A DNA stretch of 46,399 bases. Source: Candidatus Stercoripulliclostridium merdipullorum (GTDB lineage: Bacteria; Bacillota; Clostridia; Christensenellales; DTU072). The stretch is from positions 1 to 46,399 of the forward strand of contig DVOH01000031.1 of assembly GCA_018713745.1 (NCBI GenBank), read 5' to 3'. The notes beneath the pieces are model-generated. The model was not told where the DNA came from, did not search any database, and was given only the letters and a program-made list of their open reading frames with translations. Positions 26,025 to 36,898 of the stretch are shown here, piece after piece. How positions within the stretch are numbered: position 1 is the stretch's first letter; every line of letters starts with the position of its first letter. Both the position numbers and the translations under genes were made by a program.

Positions 26025-26053
26025 ATTATAGCGCAAAAGAACGCCGAAGTCAA
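26025..26053 (-). promoter_or_regulatory. Sigma-A promoter for citrate synthase
   Basis: On the minus strand TTGACT (26053-26048), a 17-nt spacer and a perfect TATAAT (26030-26025). It overlaps the last codons of the ECF S-component gene, so the citrate synthase unit can be transcribed independently, although read-through from upstream is not blocked by any visible terminator. Confidence 0.88.
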
Positions 26054-26727
26054 ACGTCAGATTGCGGGGATTGCCGCAAAACACGACCGATCCTTTTTTT
26101 CAAAAAGCGATGGAAGGCGATCACGGTCAACGCCGAAGAAACGGCATGGGCGAGATCGAAAAAGAAACTTGCCCCCCAAACGGTTAGAAACGCCGATACG
26201 CTCGGCTTGTCGAACATGGCAAACATCGAAAAGACGTCCAGCACGACCCCGTACATAAACCCTGCAAAAACGGCGTAAACGGTCAGTGCGGGCGTATCGA
26301 AGCGTGAAAGCGCGGCAGCGCCGATCCCGATCAGCCCCGTCGCCATCATCTGCCAGGGTGTCCAAAGCCCCTGTCCCAGAAGAACGTTGGAAACCAGCAC
26401 CGTCACCGCCCCCGCGGCAAACCCCGACCGTGCACCCAGCAAAACGCCCGCAAGAATGACAAACCCCGTGCTGAGCGTAAAATTAGGCAAAAACGCAAAC
26501 GCCCACCTGCCGACGACGGCGACGGAAATCAGAACGGCAAGCAGAACAATCTTTTTTTCGTCCGCGCCGCGCTCGAACCCGACCAACAGCGGAACGACTC
26601 CGAATAACGCCGCCCCCGCACTGCCGAGGGCATGCGGGATCAGCCCCGCCGTCGTCAGCGCCACGGCAACGACGGCAAAAACAACGCCCGCAGTCAGCGC
26701 GACAATTTGTTTAGTTTTGGAGCGCAT
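26050..26727 (-). CDS. ECF transporter S component, probably cobalamin or cobalamin-precursor specific
   Basis: 225 residues from ATG 26727 (MRSKTK) with AAGGAG upstream. About six hydrophobic segments and short loops are typical of ECF substrate-binding subunits. The segment GQGLWTPWQMMATGLIG resembles the G-x-G-x-W-T-P-W-Q-M signature that I recall from cobalamin-type S components in Firmicutes. It is the last gene of the riboswitch-controlled operon and overlaps the ATPase gene by 17 nt. B12 specificity rests on the riboswitch and on the transcobalamin-like partners; the S component alone does not prove it. C-terminal residues are basic, as expected for the cytoplasmic side. Confidence 0.82.
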   Translation of the reverse strand: MRSKTKQIVALTAGVVFAVVAVALTTAGLIPHALGSAGAALFGVVPLLVGFERGADEKKIVLLAVLISVAVVGRWAFAFLPNFTLSTGFVILAGVLLGARSGFAAGAVTVLVSNVLLGQGLWTPWQMMATGLIGIGAAALSRFDTPALTVYAVFAGFMYGVVLDVFSMFAMFDKPSVSAFLTVWGASFFFDLAHAVSSALTVIAFHRFLKKRIGRVLRQSPQSDV

Positions 26728-28204
26728 TCCAAAGATCTCCTTCGGTTCGGACTTCGGGGCAACGCTCGGCGGCGATCGACTCTGCGGCGGATGCGGCAAA
26801 GTATCCGCGATCGGAGTCGGTCAGTTCTCCGTCAAACAACAACGCCCGCCGACAGGCGACTTCCGCCGCAAAATCGTTATCGTGCGTTACGACGATCGCA
26901 CTGCCGCCCGAAGCGGCATAGGCTTTCAGTCGACGCGCCAAAATTTCTTTTGCGCCGCCGTCCATCCCTTTGGTCGGCTCGTCCAGAATCAGAACGTCGG
27001 GATCGGCGGCAAGCAATTTGGAAATCGCGGCTTTTTGCTTTTCGCCCCCGCTGAGATCGAGGGGATCGGTTTTTCGGAGGCGATCGGGCATTTGCCAGGC
27101 GTCGAATTCCGCTTCGGGCATCTCCTCCTCCAACGTATCGCGGTCAAACAGCCAATCGACGTTATCCGGAAGATACAGCACCCTATCGGGTCGTTTCAGC
27201 TTCCCGTAATAAGGTTTCAGTCCTCCCGCCAAAATTTTCATCAACGTCGATTTTCCCGCTCCGTTGCCGCCGTATACCGACAAGATTTCGCCTTTTGCAA
27301 GCGTCAGATCGACGCCCTTCAAAACGTCGGGATTTTTTTTGCCGTATCGGAATCGGATGCCGCGCGCTTCGAGTACGGGGGCACTGTGCGAACGCGGGAC
27401 AGATGCCTTCGGCAAACGTTTGACTTCGGCTTTTCGGACGGCGCGCCGCGCTTCCGCCATCGAATCGCACGGCACACCGAGATAATCTCCCACTTTCACA
27501 AACAACGGAAGCCAGGGATATACGCCGCTTTCTATTTCCTTGCGCTTACAGTCCGCTACGATTCTCCCTTCCTTCAACACTACGATGCGGTCGGCAAGAT
27601 TCCATAGCATCTCGGCGCGGTGCTCCGCCGCCACGACCGTAATCCCTTCTTCTTTGTTCAGTCGAGACAAAAGTCCCCCAAAACGCGCCGCGCTTACGGG
27701 ATCGAGACGCGAAACCGGTTCGTCCAGCAACAGCACCTTGGGACGCATCGTCATGACAGCGGCAAGATTGACGATTTGTTTCAGTCCCCCCGACAAGGCG
27801 TCGATTTCGGTTTCGCCCCGTTCGTTCAATCCGAAATAATACATGGCTTCCCCTGCCCGGGCGCGCATTTCGTCATAGGGCACGCCGAGATTCTCCATGC
27901 CGAAACATAATTCGGGGTAAACCCGATCGGCAACCGACTGTCCTTCGGGACTCTGTGCAACATATCCGACGGCAACGCTTTCGGTATCGCTCATTTCGAG
28001 CGGTCGCTTTCCGCAAACGGCAATATCGCCGGTTCCCTTCGGAGAAGCAAATTCTCGCTTGAACTGCCGAATCAGCGTGGTTTTTCCGCTGCCGCTTTCT
28101 CCCAGCAACAAGACAAACTCGCCTTCCCCGACCGTCAGATCGATTCCTTCCAGGGCAAACGCCCCGATCTTCAATCCGAAATTTTTGCAACGGATCGCTT
28201 CCAT
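26711..28204 (-). CDS. ECF transporter ATPase with two fused ABC domains (EcfA-EcfA')
   Basis: 497 residues from ATG 28204; GAGG lies seven bases upstream. Two complete ABC units are present. The first has Walker A GESGSGKTT, signature LSGGLKQ and Walker B VLLLDEP. The second, from about residue 275, has GGNGAGKST, LSGGEKQ and VLILDEP. The usual EcfA and EcfA' pair is thus carried on one chain, an arrangement known in several ECF systems. It powers transport together with EcfT and the S component on the inner face of the membrane. It overlaps EcfT by 34 nt and the S component by 17 nt, implying coupled synthesis. Confidence 0.92.
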   Translation of the reverse strand: MEAIRCKNFGLKIGAFALEGIDLTVGEGEFVLLLGESGSGKTTLIRQFKREFASPKGTGDIAVCGKRPLEMSDTESVAVGYVAQSPEGQSVADRVYPELCFGMENLGVPYDEMRARAGEAMYYFGLNERGETEIDALSGGLKQIVNLAAVMTMRPKVLLLDEPVSRLDPVSAARFGGLLSRLNKEEGITVVAAEHRAEMLWNLADRIVVLKEGRIVADCKRKEIESGVYPWLPLFVKVGDYLGVPCDSMAEARRAVRKAEVKRLPKASVPRSHSAPVLEARGIRFRYGKKNPDVLKGVDLTLAKGEILSVYGGNGAGKSTLMKILAGGLKPYYGKLKRPDRVLYLPDNVDWLFDRDTLEEEMPEAEFDAWQMPDRLRKTDPLDLSGGEKQKAAISKLLAADPDVLILDEPTKGMDGGAKEILARRLKAYAASGGSAIVVTHDNDFAAEVACRRALLFDGELTDSDRGYFAASAAESIAAERCPEVRTEGDLWNALQN

Positions 28205-29040
28205 TTCCACACCTCACAACCGTCAAACAAAATCGGCATCATCCCGATCCACGCCGCTCCCGCCGTCATCATTACGGCACCTGCCGAATCGAAATCAAAC
28301 CGCAACCCCGGAAAAAAGACGGTTTCTCCGGCAAGCGCATATCCGACAACGGTCAGCACAAACGCCGCTGCCGATCCAAACAAAAACACCGCGTCTGCCC
28401 CGCCGAAGCGGTACCGCCTGCAAAACGTTCTGCTTTTTATTCCGTATCCCCGCGCACGCATCGAGTCGGCGCGCGTCGCGCTTTCCTCGATCGCGCGGGT
28501 TATGGTTGCGCGTAAAGCACGATACTCCCCATTCAACCGCCCTTTGCCCGACGGGAGCAGTCCCGCCGCTTTCATGGCAATGCGAACTTCTTTGTGGGTG
28601 CGTTGCAACTCGGGGATCAGTCGCAACGTCATCGACAACAACAACGCCGTCGAAGGAAATACTTTGCCGAAGGCGTAGGCATAGCGATCGGCACTCATAT
28701 ACGCGTCGAATGCGGCAAACCAAAACGCCGCGGCAATCAGCATCATACCCGACACGCCTCCGTAAACAAAACTTTCCGCCGTAACCGTCAGCGATCCGAG
28801 CGTCAGCCACACGGTTACCCCCCTGCCGTTGACCAAAGGATTGATCAGCACGACAAACGCCGCAACGGGGATCGACCATAGCGCGCGCAAGGCGTAGCGC
28901 CGATCGGTCTGCACGGCATATCCGATCCCGCAAACGGTAAGGATGCCCAGTGCAATCGGCTGCTTGATCAGCACGCACGCGACGACCGCAAACATAAAAA
29001 ATACGATCGCGGTATACGGATTGAGATTACGGACAAACAT
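28171..29040 (-). CDS. ECF transporter T component (EcfT)
   Basis: 289 residues from ATG 29040 (MFVRNLNPYT), with AGGAG six bases upstream. Hydrophobic segments lie at about 10-100, and the long cytoplasmic coupling helices contain MRLIPELQR, AMKAAGL and ESATRADSMRARGYG. The last includes the conserved A-R-G tripeptide that contacts the ATPases. Two further membrane segments close the protein. It is the scaffold that joins the ATPases to the S component. It overlaps the upstream DUF4430 gene by 14 nt and the ATPase gene by 34 nt. Confidence 0.9.
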   Translation of the reverse strand: MFVRNLNPYTAIVFFMFAVVACVLIKQPIALGILTVCGIGYAVQTDRRYALRALWSIPVAAFVVLINPLVNGRGVTVWLTLGSLTVTAESFVYGGVSGMMLIAAAFWFAAFDAYMSADRYAYAFGKVFPSTALLLSMTLRLIPELQRTHKEVRIAMKAAGLLPSGKGRLNGEYRALRATITRAIEESATRADSMRARGYGIKSRTFCRRYRFGGADAVFLFGSAAAFVLTVVGYALAGETVFFPGLRFDFDSAGAVMMTAGAAWIGMMPILFDGCEVWKWKRSVAKISD

Positions 29041-29557
29041 CGAGATCTCCTTTCTGCAAGGAATACCGCCAACGGATGACGTCGCCGTCGGCAAGCGGCT
29101 TGCTTCCCGCACCGACCACGGCATAAACACCGTTGACGCTGTACAGCCATCCCCCCTCGTCGGTCAACTTTTCGGGGAGTCCCGCAAGGGAAGCGACATA
29201 ACCTCCGCGGGCGGAAACGGGAAGACCGTAACGATCGGCAACGCTTTGCAAGGCGTCCAGAACGGTCCCGCCCCCTTCCGTTTTTACGACCGCGTTCTGC
29301 ACAACGGTGCCGTCCTCTCCGAGCAACGCCCGTCCTTCTTCGCCGAGAGCGGCGAAGACCTGCTCTTTCAACGCGGCGTTTTCGGGCAAAAACAACGTGC
29401 GGCAGTCAATCGAAACGGTAACGGATACCGTTCCGGACGGAGTTTCCTGCAGGGGCTGCTCCCGCGTAAGGAGCATGACGGTCAACGGAACGGCAACGAT
29501 CAGCGCGATCAGAATTGCCGCAATCAGATAGGATTTTTTGTTTTTCGACCCTTTCAT
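29027..29557 (-). CDS. Membrane-anchored transcobalamin-C-like (DUF4430) protein
   Basis: 176 residues. A basic N-terminus (MKGSKNKKS) and one hydrophobic segment at about 10-31 anchor it, with the rest outside. The exported part matches the DUF4430/Transcobalamin_like_C fold (PF14478): VTVSIDCRTL, then VLDALQSVADRYG, and the hallmark GGWLYSVNGVYAVVGAGSKPLADGDVIRWRYS. In intrinsic factor and transcobalamin this beta domain covers the upper face of the bound corrinoid. There is no clear ribosome site: the ATG is only 5 nt below the stop of the preceding gene, so translation is probably coupled. The preceding gene supplies an alpha/alpha-barrel protein, the other half of a transcobalamin-like binder. 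Confidence 0.85.
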   Translation of the reverse strand: MKGSKNKKSYLIAAILIALIVAVPLTVMLLTREQPLQETPSGTVSVTVSIDCRTLFLPENAALKEQVFAALGEEGRALLGEDGTVVQNAVVKTEGGGTVLDALQSVADRYGLPVSARGGYVASLAGLPEKLTDEGGWLYSVNGVYAVVGAGSKPLADGDVIRWRYSLQKGDLDVCP

Positions 29558-29562
29558 ACCGA

Positions 29563-30702
29563 TTATAAAGCGCGATAAAAGCTACCCTTTCCTTCCGCGG
29601 CAAGACGGCAGGAGATCAACGCGCGCATCCCGTCCGTCGTCGAGAAGGAATCGGCATTCAGTCCCGCTCCCGCGGCAAACAATCCTTTTTCCGTTCCGTC
29701 CGTAATCCGCATCGAAAGGACAAAGTCAATCGTCTGTTTGCCGCCGACGGCGACAAAATCCGCTACGCTTTGTCCTGCCGCGCACAGCGCCGTCAGCGTG
29801 GTTGCGGTACTGCTGAAATTGGGCAACGGCTGATACGGCGGCGCCCAGGAGTCCACGCACACCGCGCCGTCCGCATTGAGTTTCTCTTTAATCCGATCGA
29901 GCCCCGCTTTCGCCGCCGCCTTAAATGCCTCGCTTTGGCAATACGAAGCGAAGGAGTACACCGTCATCGCGGTGGTATCGACGTCAAACGTTTCGACGCC
30001 GCCCGCAACATATCCCCAGCCGCCGTTTTCAAACGCAAGATCGACAACCAACGCCTCCATTTTGGCAAAGGTATTGTCGCTTTGGTGCTCCGTACCGTCT
30101 TTCGTGCGGTAAACGGCAGGAATCTCGCCGCCGAGACGCAAGGCAAGATAAGCGGGATTGAGGGTATAAATGCTCGGGTAGTCCCCTCCCGTTGCCGTTC
30201 TGTAACTATAATACGGATGCAACAATCCGAACCCTTCGACAACGGGCGTTTGTCCCATTGCCTGCATGGCGTTTGCCATGTGGAGATTGTAGTACGTCGG
30301 ATAAGCGTCATCGGTACAAATGACGTCGGTAGCGGGATCGCCGTATTGCAGGGCAAGCGCGGAGCAACGCGCAAGATAATCGGATTTGATATCGGCAGGC
30401 AACGCGACACAAGAGCGCGCGACGATTTCGACATAATTATCGTATACGGTACTATAATACAGATCGCCCCCCTGATCGAAACGATCGGAACGCAGCAACG
30501 CGATCAGCGCCGTGACGCTTTCGGTTTCCTGCGTGCGAAGGGGCGAAAGCGTTTGGTCGGGACGATCGGAAGGGTTGTTATCCGTCGGGGGCGTCTGATC
30601 GGTATCGTCGGGCGCGGTATCGGGCGCACAACCGACCGCAGTCAGCGCAAACAGCAAAACAATCGATACGAGTACAAGAAGCAATTTCGGGTATGTTTTC
30701 AT
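29563..30702 (-). CDS. Prenyltransferase-like alpha/alpha-barrel lipoprotein, transcobalamin alpha-domain-like
   Basis: 379 residues from ATG 30702 (MKTYPK), with AGGAG eight bases upstream; the frame continues upward to a TTG at 30822, but that stretch lies in the riboswitch leader. The signal peptide ends in TAVGC with the lipidated Cys at 25, followed by an Asp/Pro/Thr linker to about residue 65. The remaining roughly 310 residues have the repeat character of prenyltransferase/squalene-oxidase barrels: VVDLAFENGGWGYVAGG, DVDTTAMTVYSFASY, FSSTATTLTALCAAGQ. The D-x-D/T-T-A-M motif is shared with the alpha domain of intrinsic factor and transcobalamin. Being first after a cobalamin riboswitch, it is most simply read as a surface corrinoid-capture protein that works with the DUF4430 protein. 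Binding itself is inferred. Confidence 0.82.
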   Translation of the reverse strand: MKTYPKLLLVLVSIVLLFALTAVGCAPDTAPDDTDQTPPTDNNPSDRPDQTLSPLRTQETESVTALIALLRSDRFDQGGDLYYSTVYDNYVEIVARSCVALPADIKSDYLARCSALALQYGDPATDVICTDDAYPTYYNLHMANAMQAMGQTPVVEGFGLLHPYYSYRTATGGDYPSIYTLNPAYLALRLGGEIPAVYRTKDGTEHQSDNTFAKMEALVVDLAFENGGWGYVAGGVETFDVDTTAMTVYSFASYCQSEAFKAAAKAGLDRIKEKLNADGAVCVDSWAPPYQPLPNFSSTATTLTALCAAGQSVADFVAVGGKQTIDFVLSMRITDGTEKGLFAAGAGLNADSFSTTDGMRALISCRLAAEGKGSFYRAL

Positions 30703-30762
30703 CAAACATTCTCCTATATAAATGTATTTCCGCGGAAGCAAGGGCAAACGCCGCCAATACAA

Positions 30763-30782
30763 AATCCGTCTTTCGACGGATT
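30763..30782 (-). terminator. Hairpin in the riboswitch expression platform
   Basis: On the minus strand AATCCGTC, loop GAAA and GACGGATT form an 8-bp stem followed by TTGT, so the T-run is short (TTTTGT counting the stem end). It lies between the B12 box and the first gene and is the best candidate for the regulated terminator. A smaller hairpin with a GCAA loop lies at 30797-30810. Confidence 0.55.
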
Positions 30783-30844
30783 GAGCATAGCGAAAAGGTT
30801 CTTGCGAACCGCGGTTATGCAACCTCCCTCCGAGATTTCATAAT

Positions 30845-31000
30845 GTGACGGCATACGGCAGGTCTCCTGACTTGTGCGTCAAACCTCGGTCGGTCTTCCC
30901 GCTTGCGCAGTGACGTTTCGACCTTGTAGCACCTACAGTAACGGGGGTTGTGCGCGTTCGCGACTTCCCTATTAACGCCTTGCGGCGACCGTTATGCCCG
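30845..31000 (-). promoter_or_regulatory. Cobalamin riboswitch (B12 aptamer)
   Basis: Read on the minus strand the region contains TTAATAGGGAA, then CCCGTTACTGTA, GTCACTG, GCGGGAAGAC, and the B12 box AAGTCAGGAGACCTGCC at 30873-30857, which matches the class consensus. Order and spacing of these blocks fit the adenosylcobalamin-type aptamer. Boundaries are approximate. It precedes the alpha-barrel lipoprotein by about 150 nt and should turn the B12-uptake operon off when corrinoid is plentiful. It begins within a few bases of the stop of the giant surface protein, and no clear promoter of its own is visible. Confidence 0.95.
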
Positions 31001-31017: not shown

Positions 31018-34000
31018 TCAGCGGGATTTTGATGTTTTGCCGACGGATTTTTTCACGCGCGAAGGGTTGGGGGACTTCGCTTGTCCGAGGGCAACGTTTT
31101 TCTTTTTCTTCTTCCGCAACACGATCACGACGATGGCGATGATCAAAATCAACGCAACGCCGCCGCCGACCCCTGCCACGATATAAATCCACAGATTATC
31201 GGGCGTTCCGACCAGCGCAAACGATACCATATTTTCGGCATCGAACGATACGTTTACGCCGTCCCGCTTGACATTTTGCGCAACGACATATTTCCCGTCC
31301 ATATTTTTATAAACGATGACGAGATTGCGTTCGGCACTCAGTTCTTCGGTCAAAACGATGCTGACGCGTCCCGTTCCCAGTTCGGGCATGATTTCACCTT
31401 CGATGCTGACCGTAACGCTGTAAACATCCAGTGCTTTTTTAAGCGTGAGCGAAGCGTCGTTCATCGATTTGATCGCGTCGTTGTAGGCGTCATAGGTTTT
31501 TTGCGAAGCGCGTTCCGATACCTGAACAACCGATATCACCGTACGATTGTCGTAGTCGCCTTTCATCACAAACCCGAGTGTGGGATCCTGCAACAAGGTT
31601 TTCAGGATCGAAAACACGCTTTCTTTGTATTCGATCGTATAGTTTTCGGCGGATGCGCCGAAGGGCGTGATTTTGTAGTATCCGACCTTTGTCGGGAAGA
31701 TCACGTCGGGGAGCTCGTCCAGATCCGCCGCCGAATCGTCGCCCAAAAATCCTTCGTAAACGAAGTCCTTTTTCGGTGTTTCGGTTTCGCCGATTTCGAT
31801 GTCCGGCAGATAAATGGTCAGGACGGCTTTTTGTACGACAACCGTAATTTCGGCGCCGTCGGGATCAACGTAATTTCCGTTGGTGACAATATAGCGAGCC
31901 TGATATCTTCCCGCATCTTTCACGGGGCGATCGTACTCGAGTCTGCCGATCGTATCGACGGAATCGCCTTCCAGAAGATTTTCGATCCGCACCGTGAGGG
32001 GCGATTGCTCCCGTCCGTTGTAGGTGATGACGGGATTCCCGACAAATTCGACATCGATGCGACGCGGTTCCCCTTCTACCGCAAGCGCGACGGTAACTTC
32101 GCGGTAATTTGCGGAATCGGGTGTAAACACGGCGTCGAAGTACAATACGGGTTCTTTGCTGAAGTCGGGGAGAAGATCGGGGTCCGCCCAGCGGAAGGTA
32201 CCGGCCACGCCGTCAAGAACCCGGCAAGCGGGCTCGATGGCGGAAAGCGGATTGCCGTATTCGATTTTAAGTTCGTATTGCGTGCCGAAACGCGGTGCCG
32301 CAGGCAAAATCTGCAAAGAGGCGAGGAAGTAGCGCCCGATCGTATAGTTGCAATCGGAACAGACAATCCCGACGCTGGAATAGGCATAAGTTCCGACGTT
32401 TTCTCCTTCTTGTCTCCGCATGGCGGGATACTCGATCGAACCGTCGTCGCGCAGCACATACGCGCTTTCCAGGACGTCGTCCAACGTATCGCCCGGCACA
32501 AGGCCCGTCAGAGTCAGACGCGGTACGGGATCTTGCTGCCCGTATTCTTTTGTCGCGGCAAGCAGCGTCACCGTAACCTCTTTTGGGGTAACGGTATAAA
32601 CTCCGTTCATGGCAACAAGGTCGAAATTGGAGTTGACGGCGTCGTCATAGCCCGACAGAATAATGTTGTATTGACCGGCATTGACGCCGAAATCACAGAT
32701 TGCCGTTACATAGAGCAAACCTTCACCCACCATCGAAGGATCGGCAACCGCAACAAACCGTTCGGTCAGTGCACCGGGATCGGGAACGCCGTCGAAATGA
32801 CCGTCGTAAATCAAAATCTCGGAAGGAATCTGCGCTTCGCCGTAGACCGAAGTGAGATTTTTTGCCACGACGGTCAGTTTTTTGGGCAAGACGTTCATGT
32901 CAAAAGCGGAGGGATCGGCATAATCGATACGGACGTGATAGCCGTTTGCCGAACTTTCTCCTTCGGGTCGTACGAGATACGATCCGACGGGGAACCAGCT
33001 GTTTTCGGGGTCGTACAACGTGAACGACCCGTCCTTATTTTCGACGTAAATGGACGGAGCGACAAACCCGTCTGGAACGGTCTTGTCGAGATCCCCCTCG
33101 ACCAAACCTTCAAACGTATATGCGATGACGGGAAGACTTCCGTATTCGGCGGAAATCGAAATGCCCTTAATCGTGAGATTGACTTTTTGGACATCGAGGA
33201 TGAGATCGGCACTCCGCTTTTCGAGATAATTCTTGCTTTCGGCGCGGACGGCGTAAAGCACGACGATACCGCCGCCGGTAAAGGTCGCGATATCCCCGTC
33301 GACCGAAGCGAACCCTTCTCCGACATAATAAGTGACCTGCCCGTCCCCGCTGCCGGGAGCCGTCAGAACGAGTTGCTGCGGCGCCATGCCGTAACGCAAT
33401 TCAACGGCGGGATCGGCAAGCGCTAACGCCAGGTCACCCTGCTCGGCTTTGGCAACCGAAAACTCAATCGTGCCTTCCCCTTGGTAATTTCCGTCGACCG
33501 AAGCGACGGCGCGATAGCGTCCGGCGTCGACGGGCAAACCGTTTTCGTCGAGTACGCCGTTTTCCAGGACGCTGTATTCGATGCGATCGGGCGAAAGATA
33601 AATATCGCTTCTTCCGTCATTATAGTACGCAAGAATCGCCTGCCCCGCTCCGTCATACACCAGGTTGGTGTATTGTTTGAAGCGGATCTCAACCGAAATC
33701 GGCGATATGGTCAGATAGTACCCTTCTTCGGGCAATGCGATATCGTAGTAAATATCCGTGGTATCGAGGGGCATAACCTCCAGGCGATAGACGCCGACGT
33801 TAATCGCATATTCGACCGCCTCCCACCCGCTTTCGGTTTGACGGAAAAAGTTGAATCGGACATTGGGTGTTTTGCCGGCGACAACGTTTTGCCAGCTGTA
33901 TTGTTGGATCGATACGGGCGCGGCAATATAAGACACATTGAGGTGTTCGGGCAGGATTTCGAGGGTAATCTGCCGCTTGGTGATGGTCGCCGCCACACTG

Positions 34001-36804
34001 ATATAACCGGTTTCTTCGAGGGCGGTATCCGATTGCGGGTCGTCTTTGACCAAATAAACGCGTCCTTCCTCCGTCGTATCGTACAGCGTATAATTGCGCG
34101 CTGCGGAAGAGGCACTGCTGAACTCGAGCGCAACCGAAGCTACGGCGTCCAGCGGAGCGGAAGAAGGTTCGGCTTTGTTATAATAAACGGTTGCGGTAAC
34201 GCCGAGCAAAGCAAGATCACTCGGCACAATCCCCGCAAAAGCCTCCGTCCCGACGGGAACGGTAATGGGCTCATACGTCAATTTTCCGTCGTAAGGCTTT
34301 TCGTTGGGCAGCAACGAACGGATGACGGTCAGACGTCTTTTGGCGATGGTAAACGAAAGACTCTGACTTCCTCTGCGGACTCCGTTTTCGTCGGCGACCC
34401 AAACGGTCAGCGAATACGTCCCTGCCGCAGTGGGATTGTTGGAAGAATATATGATTTCGGTTGCAAAACCGACGTCGGGCAACTCGAACGAGTACGTCGT
34501 CGGGGTGCCGTCATATTCTCTCGTATCGATCGCAGGCGCGTTGACTGCGACAAACTCGGCACCGAACCGGTCGGCATCGGCCCCGGGCATTGCGACGACG
34601 GCAATGTTGCTGCGATCGGAGGAAGAGAATTCGTATTCAAACGAAGCCGTCATGGGATTGTTGACGGTATTGTAGACGACGGCTTCTTTCAGATAATATC
34701 CGTCCTCTGCTTTCAGGGCAAGTCTTACGGCTTGCCCCTCATAGAACCAACGTTCGGTTGCCGCGGATCCGACAAACCCGATCGAACCGTTGACAACGTC
34801 GGCAAGGCTGAGGCTTTTGACAAAGCGGGCATAAACCGTACCGCGATAATAAGAGTCGGGCGTCGCGGTGTAATATGCGCTGTCCTCCAAAACGTCTTCG
34901 GATGCCGTACGGAACTGCGGTCTCCAAACCCCGCTTTCGGCGCTGGCGGCAAATTGAACGGTCGATCCCGTCCTTGTCGCGACGACTTCGCCGTTCTGCC
35001 CTTCCACCATCATCGAGCCGAAGGTTACGGCGCCGACGGCATCGGCACTCCCCTGATCGGTGACAAACCAACAGTTGGCGGCAGAGGAAGCGCTTGTCTG
35101 CGCGGCAATCCCGCTCAAGCCCGAAGTCCCTTCGAGTCGGACCGTCGAAAGCAGGTCGGAACAGGTTACGTTAGCAAGACTCCCCGCAATTCCTCCGACA
35201 AAACGGATGCCTTCAACCACACCGTCAACCGTAATACCGGCAATTTTTCCGCCCGTCGCTTTGCCGACGACGGCGCCGACGGTTTCGGTCCCTTTTACGG
35301 TCAGATTGCCGAAATTAACGTTTTGAATCACCGCGCCTTCCGTCAGACCGAATACGCCGGTATTGTATCCTTCGCTGAGATCGGCAACGACGTCTCTGCT
35401 CCGATCGACGACGAGTCCCGAAATCGTATGATCATCCCCGTCGAAATTACCGCGGAACACCTGACTGCCGCCCGATCCGATCGGTTGAAATCCGCTGACG
35501 TCGGACATATCGAGATCGGAAGCAAGGCTGAAAAATTTACCGCTGTAAGTAACCGCACCGGTCATACGATAGGTATTGACGGCGGTCGAGAGGTACAAAA
35601 ACTGCGCCGGAGTTTCGATCAAATAAGGGTTATCCTGCGTCCCCCATTCGGCAGAACCCGATTCGGGCAAAAAGCCGTAAAAGCGGGTACTTGCCGCATA
35701 TTTGGAGAAATAAGGCGACCGCTGACGGAATCCCGCGAGTTCGGGATAAAAGACGGCGGCGGCATCGCCCGAGCGGCTTTTAGCGGACGCCCAGAAGATT
35801 TCGGTAGAAAGCGGAAACACTGTCGTTACGGACACCGTAGCCCATTCCGCCGCCGAATAACCGACAACGTTATTTGCGATTACGGTTGTGTCTTCGGGGT
35901 TACCGAGGGCGGTCGAAACAAAATCGGAATTGAAATAAGCATAAGACAGCGTCAGCTTATCCTGCCCTGTTTTGGCACCGATCAGACCGCCCGACAGCGC
36001 GGGGGTACCGCCGATCGTACGGACGGCGGCATAGCTTTCGACGACGGAAAGATCGTCGGCGCCGGAATCGGCAGTCCCGTCCGCAACGCCGATCAAACCG
36101 CCCGCCGTAACGGAGTCGGCACCCGACACGACCGTAATATCGGCGGAAGCAAACGAACGGGAGACCGAACCTTTTTTAAGCGAACCGATCAGACCGCCGA
36201 CCGAAGTCGCGCCGGAAGAAGCGTCGACCCGAATCGATCCGTTAAAGTAAGAGCCCGTAACGGAAGTGTTTTCGGCAACGCCGGCGATCCCGCCGACATA
36301 AGAGCCCGTAACGGAAGTGTTTTCGGCAACGCCGACGATCCCGCCGACAGCAGACGATCCCGTCCCGTCGACGACAACGTCATAGACACCGAGATCGGTG
36401 ACGGACGCGTTAGAAAGCTTCCCGAACAAACCCGTTGCGCCGCCACTCGAACTCCGAACGGTGGCATTGAAAATCCGGTGATGATTGCCGTCGAATTTTC
36501 CAAAAAACAGCCCTTTGGAGTTTCTCCACGGCTCAACCGTCTGTCCTCCGAAATCGAGATCCGCCGTCAAGCGATATTCGACATAAGCGCCTTCATCTTC
36601 TTCATAGGCGTCGCGCAACCGCAGATAATCATCGACGGTAGCGATCAGATAAGGGTCGGATTGCGTCCCGCTACCTACAATGCCGCCGGGATCGACACCG
36701 GGGTCGTCGGCGGATGCGACAAAAGGTACGGCACTCCCGACATACAACCCCGCCGCAACCAGCGCGAGCACGATCACCAAACCGAATAAGACGTTGCGTT
36801 TCAT
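31018..36804 (-). CDS. Giant membrane-anchored GLUG/MBG surface protein
   Basis: 1928 residues from ATG 36804 (MKRNVLFG), with GAGG seven bases upstream. The signal peptide probably ends after ASA at residue 32. Then come SDPYLI-type openings and GLUG motifs (VGGIVGVAENTSVTGSY, VGGLIGSLKKGSV) in two blocks, at about 45-320 and 430-620. From about residue 750 onward it is mainly MBG-type domains (EYGSLPVIAYTF, EYGQQDPVPRLTL, EYDGTPTTYSF, PYDGK). A juxtamembrane domain, a membrane segment near 1870-1896 and a Lys/Arg-rich cytoplasmic tail of about 32 residues close the protein. No LPxTG motif is seen, so it is held by the membrane helix. A 51-bp tandem duplication lies in the first GLUG block. 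The function is unknown; adhesion or matrix binding is the usual guess for such architectures. Confidence 0.9.
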   Translation of the reverse strand: MKRNVLFGLVIVLALVAAGLYVGSAVPFVASADDPGVDPGGIVGSGTQSDPYLIATVDDYLRLRDAYEEDEGAYVEYRLTADLDFGGQTVEPWRNSKGLFFGKFDGNHHRIFNATVRSSSGGATGLFGKLSNASVTDLGVYDVVVDGTGSSAVGGIVGVAENTSVTGSYVGGIAGVAENTSVTGSYFNGSIRVDASSGATSVGGLIGSLKKGSVSRSFASADITVVSGADSVTAGGLIGVADGTADSGADDLSVVESYAAVRTIGGTPALSGGLIGAKTGQDKLTLSYAYFNSDFVSTALGNPEDTTVIANNVVGYSAAEWATVSVTTVFPLSTEIFWASAKSRSGDAAAVFYPELAGFRQRSPYFSKYAASTRFYGFLPESGSAEWGTQDNPYLIETPAQFLYLSTAVNTYRMTGAVTYSGKFFSLASDLDMSDVSGFQPIGSGGSQVFRGNFDGDDHTISGLVVDRSRDVVADLSEGYNTGVFGLTEGAVIQNVNFGNLTVKGTETVGAVVGKATGGKIAGITVDGVVEGIRFVGGIAGSLANVTCSDLLSTVRLEGTSGLSGIAAQTSASSAANCWFVTDQGSADAVGAVTFGSMMVEGQNGEVVATRTGSTVQFAASAESGVWRPQFRTASEDVLEDSAYYTATPDSYYRGTVYARFVKSLSLADVVNGSIGFVGSAATERWFYEGQAVRLALKAEDGYYLKEAVVYNTVNNPMTASFEYEFSSSDRSNIAVVAMPGADADRFGAEFVAVNAPAIDTREYDGTPTTYSFELPDVGFATEIIYSSNNPTAAGTYSLTVWVADENGVRRGSQSLSFTIAKRRLTVIRSLLPNEKPYDGKLTYEPITVPVGTEAFAGIVPSDLALLGVTATVYYNKAEPSSAPLDAVASVALEFSSASSAARNYTLYDTTEEGRVYLVKDDPQSDTALEETGYISVAATITKRQITLEILPEHLNVSYIAAPVSIQQYSWQNVVAGKTPNVRFNFFRQTESGWEAVEYAINVGVYRLEVMPLDTTDIYYDIALPEEGYYLTISPISVEIRFKQYTNLVYDGAGQAILAYYNDGRSDIYLSPDRIEYSVLENGVLDENGLPVDAGRYRAVASVDGNYQGEGTIEFSVAKAEQGDLALALADPAVELRYGMAPQQLVLTAPGSGDGQVTYYVGEGFASVDGDIATFTGGGIVVLYAVRAESKNYLEKRSADLILDVQKVNLTIKGISISAEYGSLPVIAYTFEGLVEGDLDKTVPDGFVAPSIYVENKDGSFTLYDPENSWFPVGSYLVRPEGESSANGYHVRIDYADPSAFDMNVLPKKLTVVAKNLTSVYGEAQIPSEILIYDGHFDGVPDPGALTERFVAVADPSMVGEGLLYVTAICDFGVNAGQYNIILSGYDDAVNSNFDLVAMNGVYTVTPKEVTVTLLAATKEYGQQDPVPRLTLTGLVPGDTLDDVLESAYVLRDDGSIEYPAMRRQEGENVGTYAYSSVGIVCSDCNYTIGRYFLASLQILPAAPRFGTQYELKIEYGNPLSAIEPACRVLDGVAGTFRWADPDLLPDFSKEPVLYFDAVFTPDSANYREVTVALAVEGEPRRIDVEFVGNPVITYNGREQSPLTVRIENLLEGDSVDTIGRLEYDRPVKDAGRYQARYIVTNGNYVDPDGAEITVVVQKAVLTIYLPDIEIGETETPKKDFVYEGFLGDDSAADLDELPDVIFPTKVGYYKITPFGASAENYTIEYKESVFSILKTLLQDPTLGFVMKGDYDNRTVISVVQVSERASQKTYDAYNDAIKSMNDASLTLKKALDVYSVTVSIEGEIMPELGTGRVSIVLTEELSAERNLVIVYKNMDGKYVVAQNVKRDGVNVSFDAENMVSFALVGTPDNLWIYIVAGVGGGVALILIIAIVVIVLRKKKKKNVALGQAKSPNPSRVKKSVGKTSKSR
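36250..36351 (-). repeat. 51-bp in-frame tandem duplication in the GLUG block
   Basis: Positions 36250-36300 and 36301-36351 are nearly identical; the differences I see are one A/G substitution and the final base or bases. The unit encodes 17 residues (GGIVGVAENTSVTGSYV) and keeps the frame. Confidence 0.9.
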
Positions 36805-36830
36805 ACCAAATCCTCTCTGATCTTCTCTTG

Positions 36831-36857
36831 ATATACGCGCGATATTCGCGCGTATAT
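36831..36857. repeat. 11-bp inverted repeat in the 5' leader of the giant surface protein
   Basis: ATATACGCGCG (36831-36841) and CGCGCGTATAT (36847-36857) are perfect inverted repeats around a 5-nt centre. The element starts about 6 nt below the predicted transcription start and ends 26 nt above the ATG. It may be an operator or, in RNA, a stable leader hairpin. Confidence 0.75.
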
Positions 36858-36869
36858 ATATACGTTGCA

Positions 36870-36898
36870 ATTATATCATATCGCGCGCGGTATTTCAA
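36870..36898 (-). promoter_or_regulatory. Sigma-A promoter for the giant surface protein
   Basis: On the minus strand TTGAAA (36898-36893), a 17-nt GC-rich spacer and a perfect TATAAT (36875-36870). It follows the terminator of the upstream operon by about 25 nt. Transcription should start near 36863, directly above the inverted repeat. Confidence 0.88.

Follow-up and report, generated by a model that had tools for sequence, protein, structure and literature searches.

A riboswitch-associated ECF transporter operon from Clostridia with a putative two-part, intrinsic-factor-like capture device for B12

Introduction

Energy-coupling factor (ECF) transporters are regarded as importers that operate without an extracellular binding protein, and we know of no description of an extracellular substrate-binding unit among their components. 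A locus of Candidatus Stercoripulliclostridium merdipullorum (contig DVOH01000031.1; the whole stretch of 46,399 nucleotides (nt) is termed the window) raises the question of which role two exported proteins could have in an ECF operon. On the minus strand, a Cobalamin riboswitch is followed by the genes of a lipoprotein with a predicted alpha/alpha-toroid domain, a DUF4430 protein, EcfT, a fused EcfA-EcfA', and an S component.

We conclude, with a probability of roughly 80%, that this operon encodes a dedicated (group I type) ECF importer of cobalamin or corrinoids with a two-part extracellular capture device, which would assemble as a pair, bind the corrinoid, and hand it over. This reading, which the initial annotation of the same DNA had already proposed, is supported because the two domains are fused in relatives and lie adjacent to ECF genes, because the AlphaFold2 model of a fused relative matches B12 carriers in the PDB, because the S component matches that of ECF-CbrT, and because Cobalamin riboswitches are associated with these genes. 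The ECF B12 pump is the known part of this system, and the putative capture device is the new one. In the open-access literature, we found no paper that connects bacterial B12 uptake with DUF4430 or with intrinsic-factor-like proteins, and no description of a bacterial system resembling intrinsic factor.

Results

Relatives were collected by a PF14478 search of related genomes and a scan of 84,980 species genomes at the DNA level, which together yielded 80 loci from Clostridia (designated by L-numbers), nearly all from metagenome-assembled genomes and many from rumen and gut. A single open reading frame (ORF) encodes both the toroid and the DUF4430 domain in 72 of these 80 loci, a share that is biased upwards because the loci were found with fused seeds. 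The fused relatives examined possess a signal peptide, the toroid, two transmembrane segments close together, and then the DUF4430 domain, and both domains would therefore lie outside. In loci with at least 4 kb of downstream sequence, EcfT was found within 3.5 kb in 50 of 59 cases, and the full set of EcfT, EcfAA', and S component in 49. L017 and L021 are intermediate, as they have adjacent genes for a toroid protein with a C-terminal transmembrane segment and a DUF4430 protein with an N-terminal one. This arrangement is the transmembrane hairpin cut in two, and the window follows the same plan with a lipid anchor replacing the first transmembrane segment.

In a class-wide sample, the toroid/DUF4430 profile matched 114 of 291 genomes at an E-value of 0.001, a count that may include other toroid proteins, and with a profile of fused proteins at a strict threshold of 1e-20, 23 of 199 genomes in the phylum matched. 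This variant of ECF B12 import is probably widespread in Clostridia. Many Clostridia have several toroid copies, often in open frames of 1000-3600 amino acids (aa) that cluster with DUF4430-like matches; these large frames perhaps represent the capture domain in a cell-wall form.

The fold was predicted for the fused protein of L060 (535 aa) by AlphaFold2 with 61 aligned sequences, which gave a mean predicted local distance difference test score (pLDDT) of 90.5 and a predicted template modelling score (pTM) of 0.78. The model consists of an alpha/alpha toroid and a C-terminal beta domain. When it was compared with the PDB by Foldseek, the 13 best matches were all transcobalamin, haptocorrin, or intrinsic factor (E-values of 2.1e-8 to 7.8e-7), followed by a squalene-hopene cyclase at 4.9e-4; the isolated transcobalamin beta domain (5no0) was also among the matches. 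Only transcobalamin, haptocorrin, and intrinsic factor spanned both domains among the matches listed. VIA-align superimposed the model (residues 30-521) on intrinsic factor (2pmv) across both domains with a Z-score of 19.4 and a root-mean-square deviation of 4.0 over 345 residues, and on transcobalamin with Z-scores of 17.7-18.5 over 336-344 residues.

The window pair is linked to these relatives by profile hidden Markov models (HMMs) built without the window. Among the 183 ORFs of the window, such an HMM picked the toroid lipoprotein alone, and the same approach found the DUF4430 protein (Table 1). The lipoprotein carries a signal peptide with an N-terminal hydrophobic segment and a lipobox (..LLFALTAVGC, read by eye), and the DUF4430 protein a single N-terminal transmembrane segment. 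In the Pfam scan of the window, the lipoprotein had no match of its own; PDB sequence searches with each exported protein alone returned nothing significant; and an NCBIfam search gave no specific name and a faint likeness to SCO2321 family membrane proteins, a family on which no relevant paper was found.

The initial annotation had described the lipoprotein as prenyltransferase-like and had stated that the pair has exactly the two folds of intrinsic factor and transcobalamin. As a fold class, the former description holds, since prenyltransferase-type similarity is weak in Pfam and clear by profile in the relatives, but the window protein itself is too divergent for Pfam. The latter is borne out at the level of the predicted fold, where the suggested structure comparison, run on the fused relative, found both domains and a match to the B12 carriers across both, and it is not borne out at the level of sequence, where PF01122 went undetected and profile searches against the PDB revealed no kinship to the animal carriers.

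We then consider the riboswitch, which was the only RNA family found by the Rfam scan of the window. Cobalamin riboswitches lie on the same strand within 8 kb upstream in 13 of the 18 genomes in which the toroid match is strongest (the window counted among them), where 0.07 would be expected under uniform placement, the assumption behind all these expectations. In a second set, the best toroid gene had a Cobalamin riboswitch within 8 kb in 11 of 22 genomes (0.09 expected; 14 when all listed toroid genes are counted), and both sets pooled give 24 of 40 sampled genomes against about 0.16 expected. For those loci that were searched against the whole of Rfam, each riboswitch found upstream of the capture gene belonged to the Cobalamin class. 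The relatives keep company with Cobalamin riboswitches and ECF genes and not with other riboswitches or enzymes, the latter being the outcome that, according to the initial annotation, would have refuted its reading. L069 (11533-11675), L075 (11533-11673), L079 (11593-11733), and L094 (11952-12089) each carry another Cobalamin riboswitch, which lies between EcfT and the fused capture gene, so that the capture gene and the ECF part appear to be separately controlled by B12.

For the S component, whose substrate the initial annotation had left without evidence, the closest relative is the solved B12 transporter CbrT. A phmmer search of the PDB with the window protein found ECF-CbrT (6fnp) at an E-value of 1.1e-7, with the next match at 3.9, and the profile of the S family reached 6.3e-20 against 6fnp. 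ECF-CbrT of Lactobacillus delbrueckii transports cobalamin and cobinamide (PMC5997447). In the host genome (1.73 Mb, 96 % complete), the riboswitch of the window is the only one of the Cobalamin class found, and there is one clear B12-binding protein, which is MetH-like; no NrdJ, no FecCD/BtuC-type permease, and no cobB/CbiA match were found in it. Judged from gene content, and with genome incompleteness as a caveat, this fits a B12 auxotroph that would use this operon as its B12 route.

The features of the operon are compiled in Table 1. The coordinates, order, and spacing given by the initial annotation were all correct, including the gap of 5 nt between the lipoprotein and DUF4430 genes and the overlapping genes that follow (overlaps of about 14, 34, and 17 nt among the DUF4430, EcfT, EcfAA', and S genes), and so were its identifications of the riboswitch and of the membrane-anchored DUF4430/Transcobalamin_like_C protein. 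The leader between aptamer and lipoprotein gene comprises 137 nt, and it folds more stably than any of 200 shuffled versions (z -3.4). The riboswitch is immediately preceded by the gene of a surface protein of 1950 aa (31018-36870, minus strand), which contains MBG-type repeats and a transmembrane segment at the C terminus and has no evident link to B12.

Table 1. Elements of the operon, with positions in the window
Feature	Position	Strand	Evidence
Cobalamin riboswitch aptamer	31009-30840	-	RF00174, 81 bits (gathering 31.5), E 1.7e-18, full model length
Terminator-like hairpin, possible expression platform	30763..30782	-	AATCCGTC-GAAA-GACGGATT then TTGTATT, 8 pairs; weak, pattern only
Exported lipoprotein with predicted alpha/alpha-toroid domain, putative counterpart of the intrinsic factor alpha domain	30702-29563	-	379 aa; family HMM E 4.7e-15; fold from the model of a relative
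Membrane-anchored DUF4430/transcobalamin-like C-terminal domain protein, putative counterpart of the beta domain	29557-29027	-	176 aa; PF14478 E 1.5e-15; family HMM E 4.4e-22
EcfT transmembrane coupling subunit	29040-28171	-	PF02361 26.0 bits, just above cut-off 25; EcfT homologues at this position in relatives
EcfA-EcfA' fused double ATPase	28204-26711	-	Two ABC domains; ECF ATPase models
S component, CbrT-like (cobalamin)	26727-26050	-	PF12822 above cut-off; 6fnp match E 1.1e-7

Several side observations concern variants of the locus. A PQQ/BamB-like beta-propeller protein is encoded behind a Cobalamin riboswitch beside DUF4430 and ECF genes in L024 (6115-8031), L018 (7366-10822), and L017 (2309-5761). 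It stands in the place of the toroid in L018 and L024, and the propeller proteins are 30-33 % alike; the propeller is possibly an exchangeable capture module. We also considered it as a relative of BtuG. A PDB search led to designed propellers and quinoproteins, and as BtuG was absent among the matches listed, we claim no such link.

A minimal version, consisting of a small DUF4430 lipoprotein and a short S component, occurs in L026 (7201-8437), L029 (6767-7934), L027, and L028. Its riboswitch is of the Cobalamin class in L026 and of the AdoCbl-II class in L029, and a metH-like gene adjoins in L028 and L029; the S protein of L029 had no match in the PDB. In L020 (5058-6419), L022 (422-1186), and L060 (6907-7821), the fused gene is directly preceded by an extra lipoprotein gene, whose product is conserved, unnamed, and exported, with one or two repeats that are DUF4430-like by eye.

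Discussion

The mechanism that we propose would begin with scarce cobalamin, under which the riboswitch would permit expression of the operon. The lipid-anchored toroid protein and the transmembrane-anchored DUF4430 protein, both predicted to lie outside the membrane, would together correspond to the vertebrate B12 carriers with their two domains, and by analogy with these the corrinoid would be held between the mouth of the toroid and the small beta domain, with the pair closing around it. It would then be passed to the CbrT-like S component, for which EcfT and the fused ATPase would supply the energy. Among the relatives found, most have both halves in one polypeptide, joined by the transmembrane hairpin.

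Several points weigh against this interpretation. The lipoprotein of the window is divergent, and the alignment with the family HMM covers the C-terminal half of the domain only. PF01122 was not listed for it or for six relatives at E-values up to 1, and AlphaFold2 with the single sequence gave no usable model (pLDDT 37). The two-domain model is that of a relative's fused protein and not of the split pair. The DUF4430 profile found no transcobalamin in the PDB and only matches at chance level. As to regulation, the best toroid gene has no riboswitch closer than 8 kb in 16 of the 40 sampled genomes; among these, some have riboswitches 9-27 kb upstream or on other contigs, and four have none. 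Finally, when taken alone, the toroid resembles squalene-hopene cyclases (Z 20.9) and sugar epimerases (Z 19.4) as closely as it does intrinsic factor (19.4). The cyclases and epimerases align to the toroid only, over about 250 residues. Since the fold of the toroid is in itself common, it is the pairing with the beta domain that points to the B12 carriers.

The same similarity underlies a reading in which the toroid is an enzyme of the squalene-cyclase kind or a binder of lipids or terpenoids, another substrate is imported, and the riboswitch merely reports B12-dependent metabolism. The toroid profile does resemble squalene-hopene and drimenyl diphosphate synthases, and a conserved D-x-D-x-T-A motif resembles the repeat motif of squalene-cyclase-type enzymes. 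At the motif position, however, the DVDD of the cyclases is DVDT in the window and mostly DVDV in the relatives, whose neighbors are transporter genes; the S component is nearest to CbrT, and the B12 carriers alone were matched over both domains among the matches listed. We therefore give this reading hardly any credence.

An arrangement in which the ECF part imports cobalamin and the exported proteins do something other than deliver it, such as stripping B12 from host or bacterial binding proteins, storing it at the surface, or acting as cell-wall adaptors, would be in line with the fact that S components bind substrate themselves and that ECF-CbrT of L. delbrueckii works without such partners (PMC5997447), as well as with the large, multi-domain toroid or DUF4430 proteins of many relatives. 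The ECF genes are nearly always adjacent, and the fusions have both domains outside, which instead suggests that the exported proteins belong to the importer and makes a role apart from delivery improbable. The substrate could furthermore be a corrinoid other than cobalamin, such as cobinamide, pseudocobalamin, or another cobamide. Other cobamides are common in gut habitats. Cobinamide is also transported by CbrT (PMC5997447). We consider this reading unlikely, and it would alter the substrate and leave the mechanism as it is.

With regard to the capture importer, the absence of a PF01122 match and the distribution over two polypeptides imply that the window pair would function in the manner of intrinsic factor without itself being one; for the fused relatives, structure argues more strongly for kinship. 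For the further proposal that a split intrinsic-factor-like clamp, assembling around a corrinoid, is a true bacterial counterpart of the animal carriers, is the extracellular substrate-binding unit of a dedicated ECF importer, and may share ancestry with the animal carriers, we see the chances as evenly balanced. If true, ECF transporters would gain a new architecture through the intrinsic-factor-like partner, a device for capturing B12 would be named for many Clostridia of gut and rumen, which compete with the host and Bacteroides for this vitamin, part of DUF4430 would gain a function, and it could be tested where the animal B12 carriers come from. The domains, which are small, should lend themselves readily to assays once the anchors are removed.

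Among known systems, the B12-binding surface lipoproteins of Bacteroides, BtuG among them, are comparable by analogy, as exported B12 binders that hand over to a membrane transporter. BtuG differs in having an unrelated beta-propeller fold and in being linked to TonB at the outer membrane and not to an ECF transporter; the relative's model is a toroid plus beta domain, and the Pfam scan found no propeller family among the window proteins.

ECF-CbrT of L. delbrueckii shares with the window a CbrT-like S component, EcfT, two ECF ATPase domains, and the link to B12. Its ECF module also serves other S components, and it has no reported exported capture protein, whereas the window has a dedicated EcfT/AA' and two exported partners. 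CbrT/CbrU/CbrV B12 ECF systems have been annotated in gut genomes, including Clostridium and Ruminococcus, and we found no mention of toroid or DUF4430 proteins in these surveys (PMC6593275, PMC9306216).

The vertebrate carriers intrinsic factor, transcobalamin, and haptocorrin (2pmv, 2bb6, 4kki) differ from the bacterial proteins in that the latter are membrane-anchored, are linked to an ECF transporter rather than a receptor, have only about 12-16 % identity to them, and carry a transmembrane hairpin between the domains in the relatives or are divided into two proteins in the window. What they have in common is a toroid followed by a small C-terminal beta domain. The DUF4430 domain ends the vertebrate TCN proteins (PMC4350170), PF14478 is found in the window and in the relatives, and the predicted alpha6/alpha6 barrel and beta domain of the fused relative, to which the window pair is linked by HMM, match the vertebrate carriers over the whole length.

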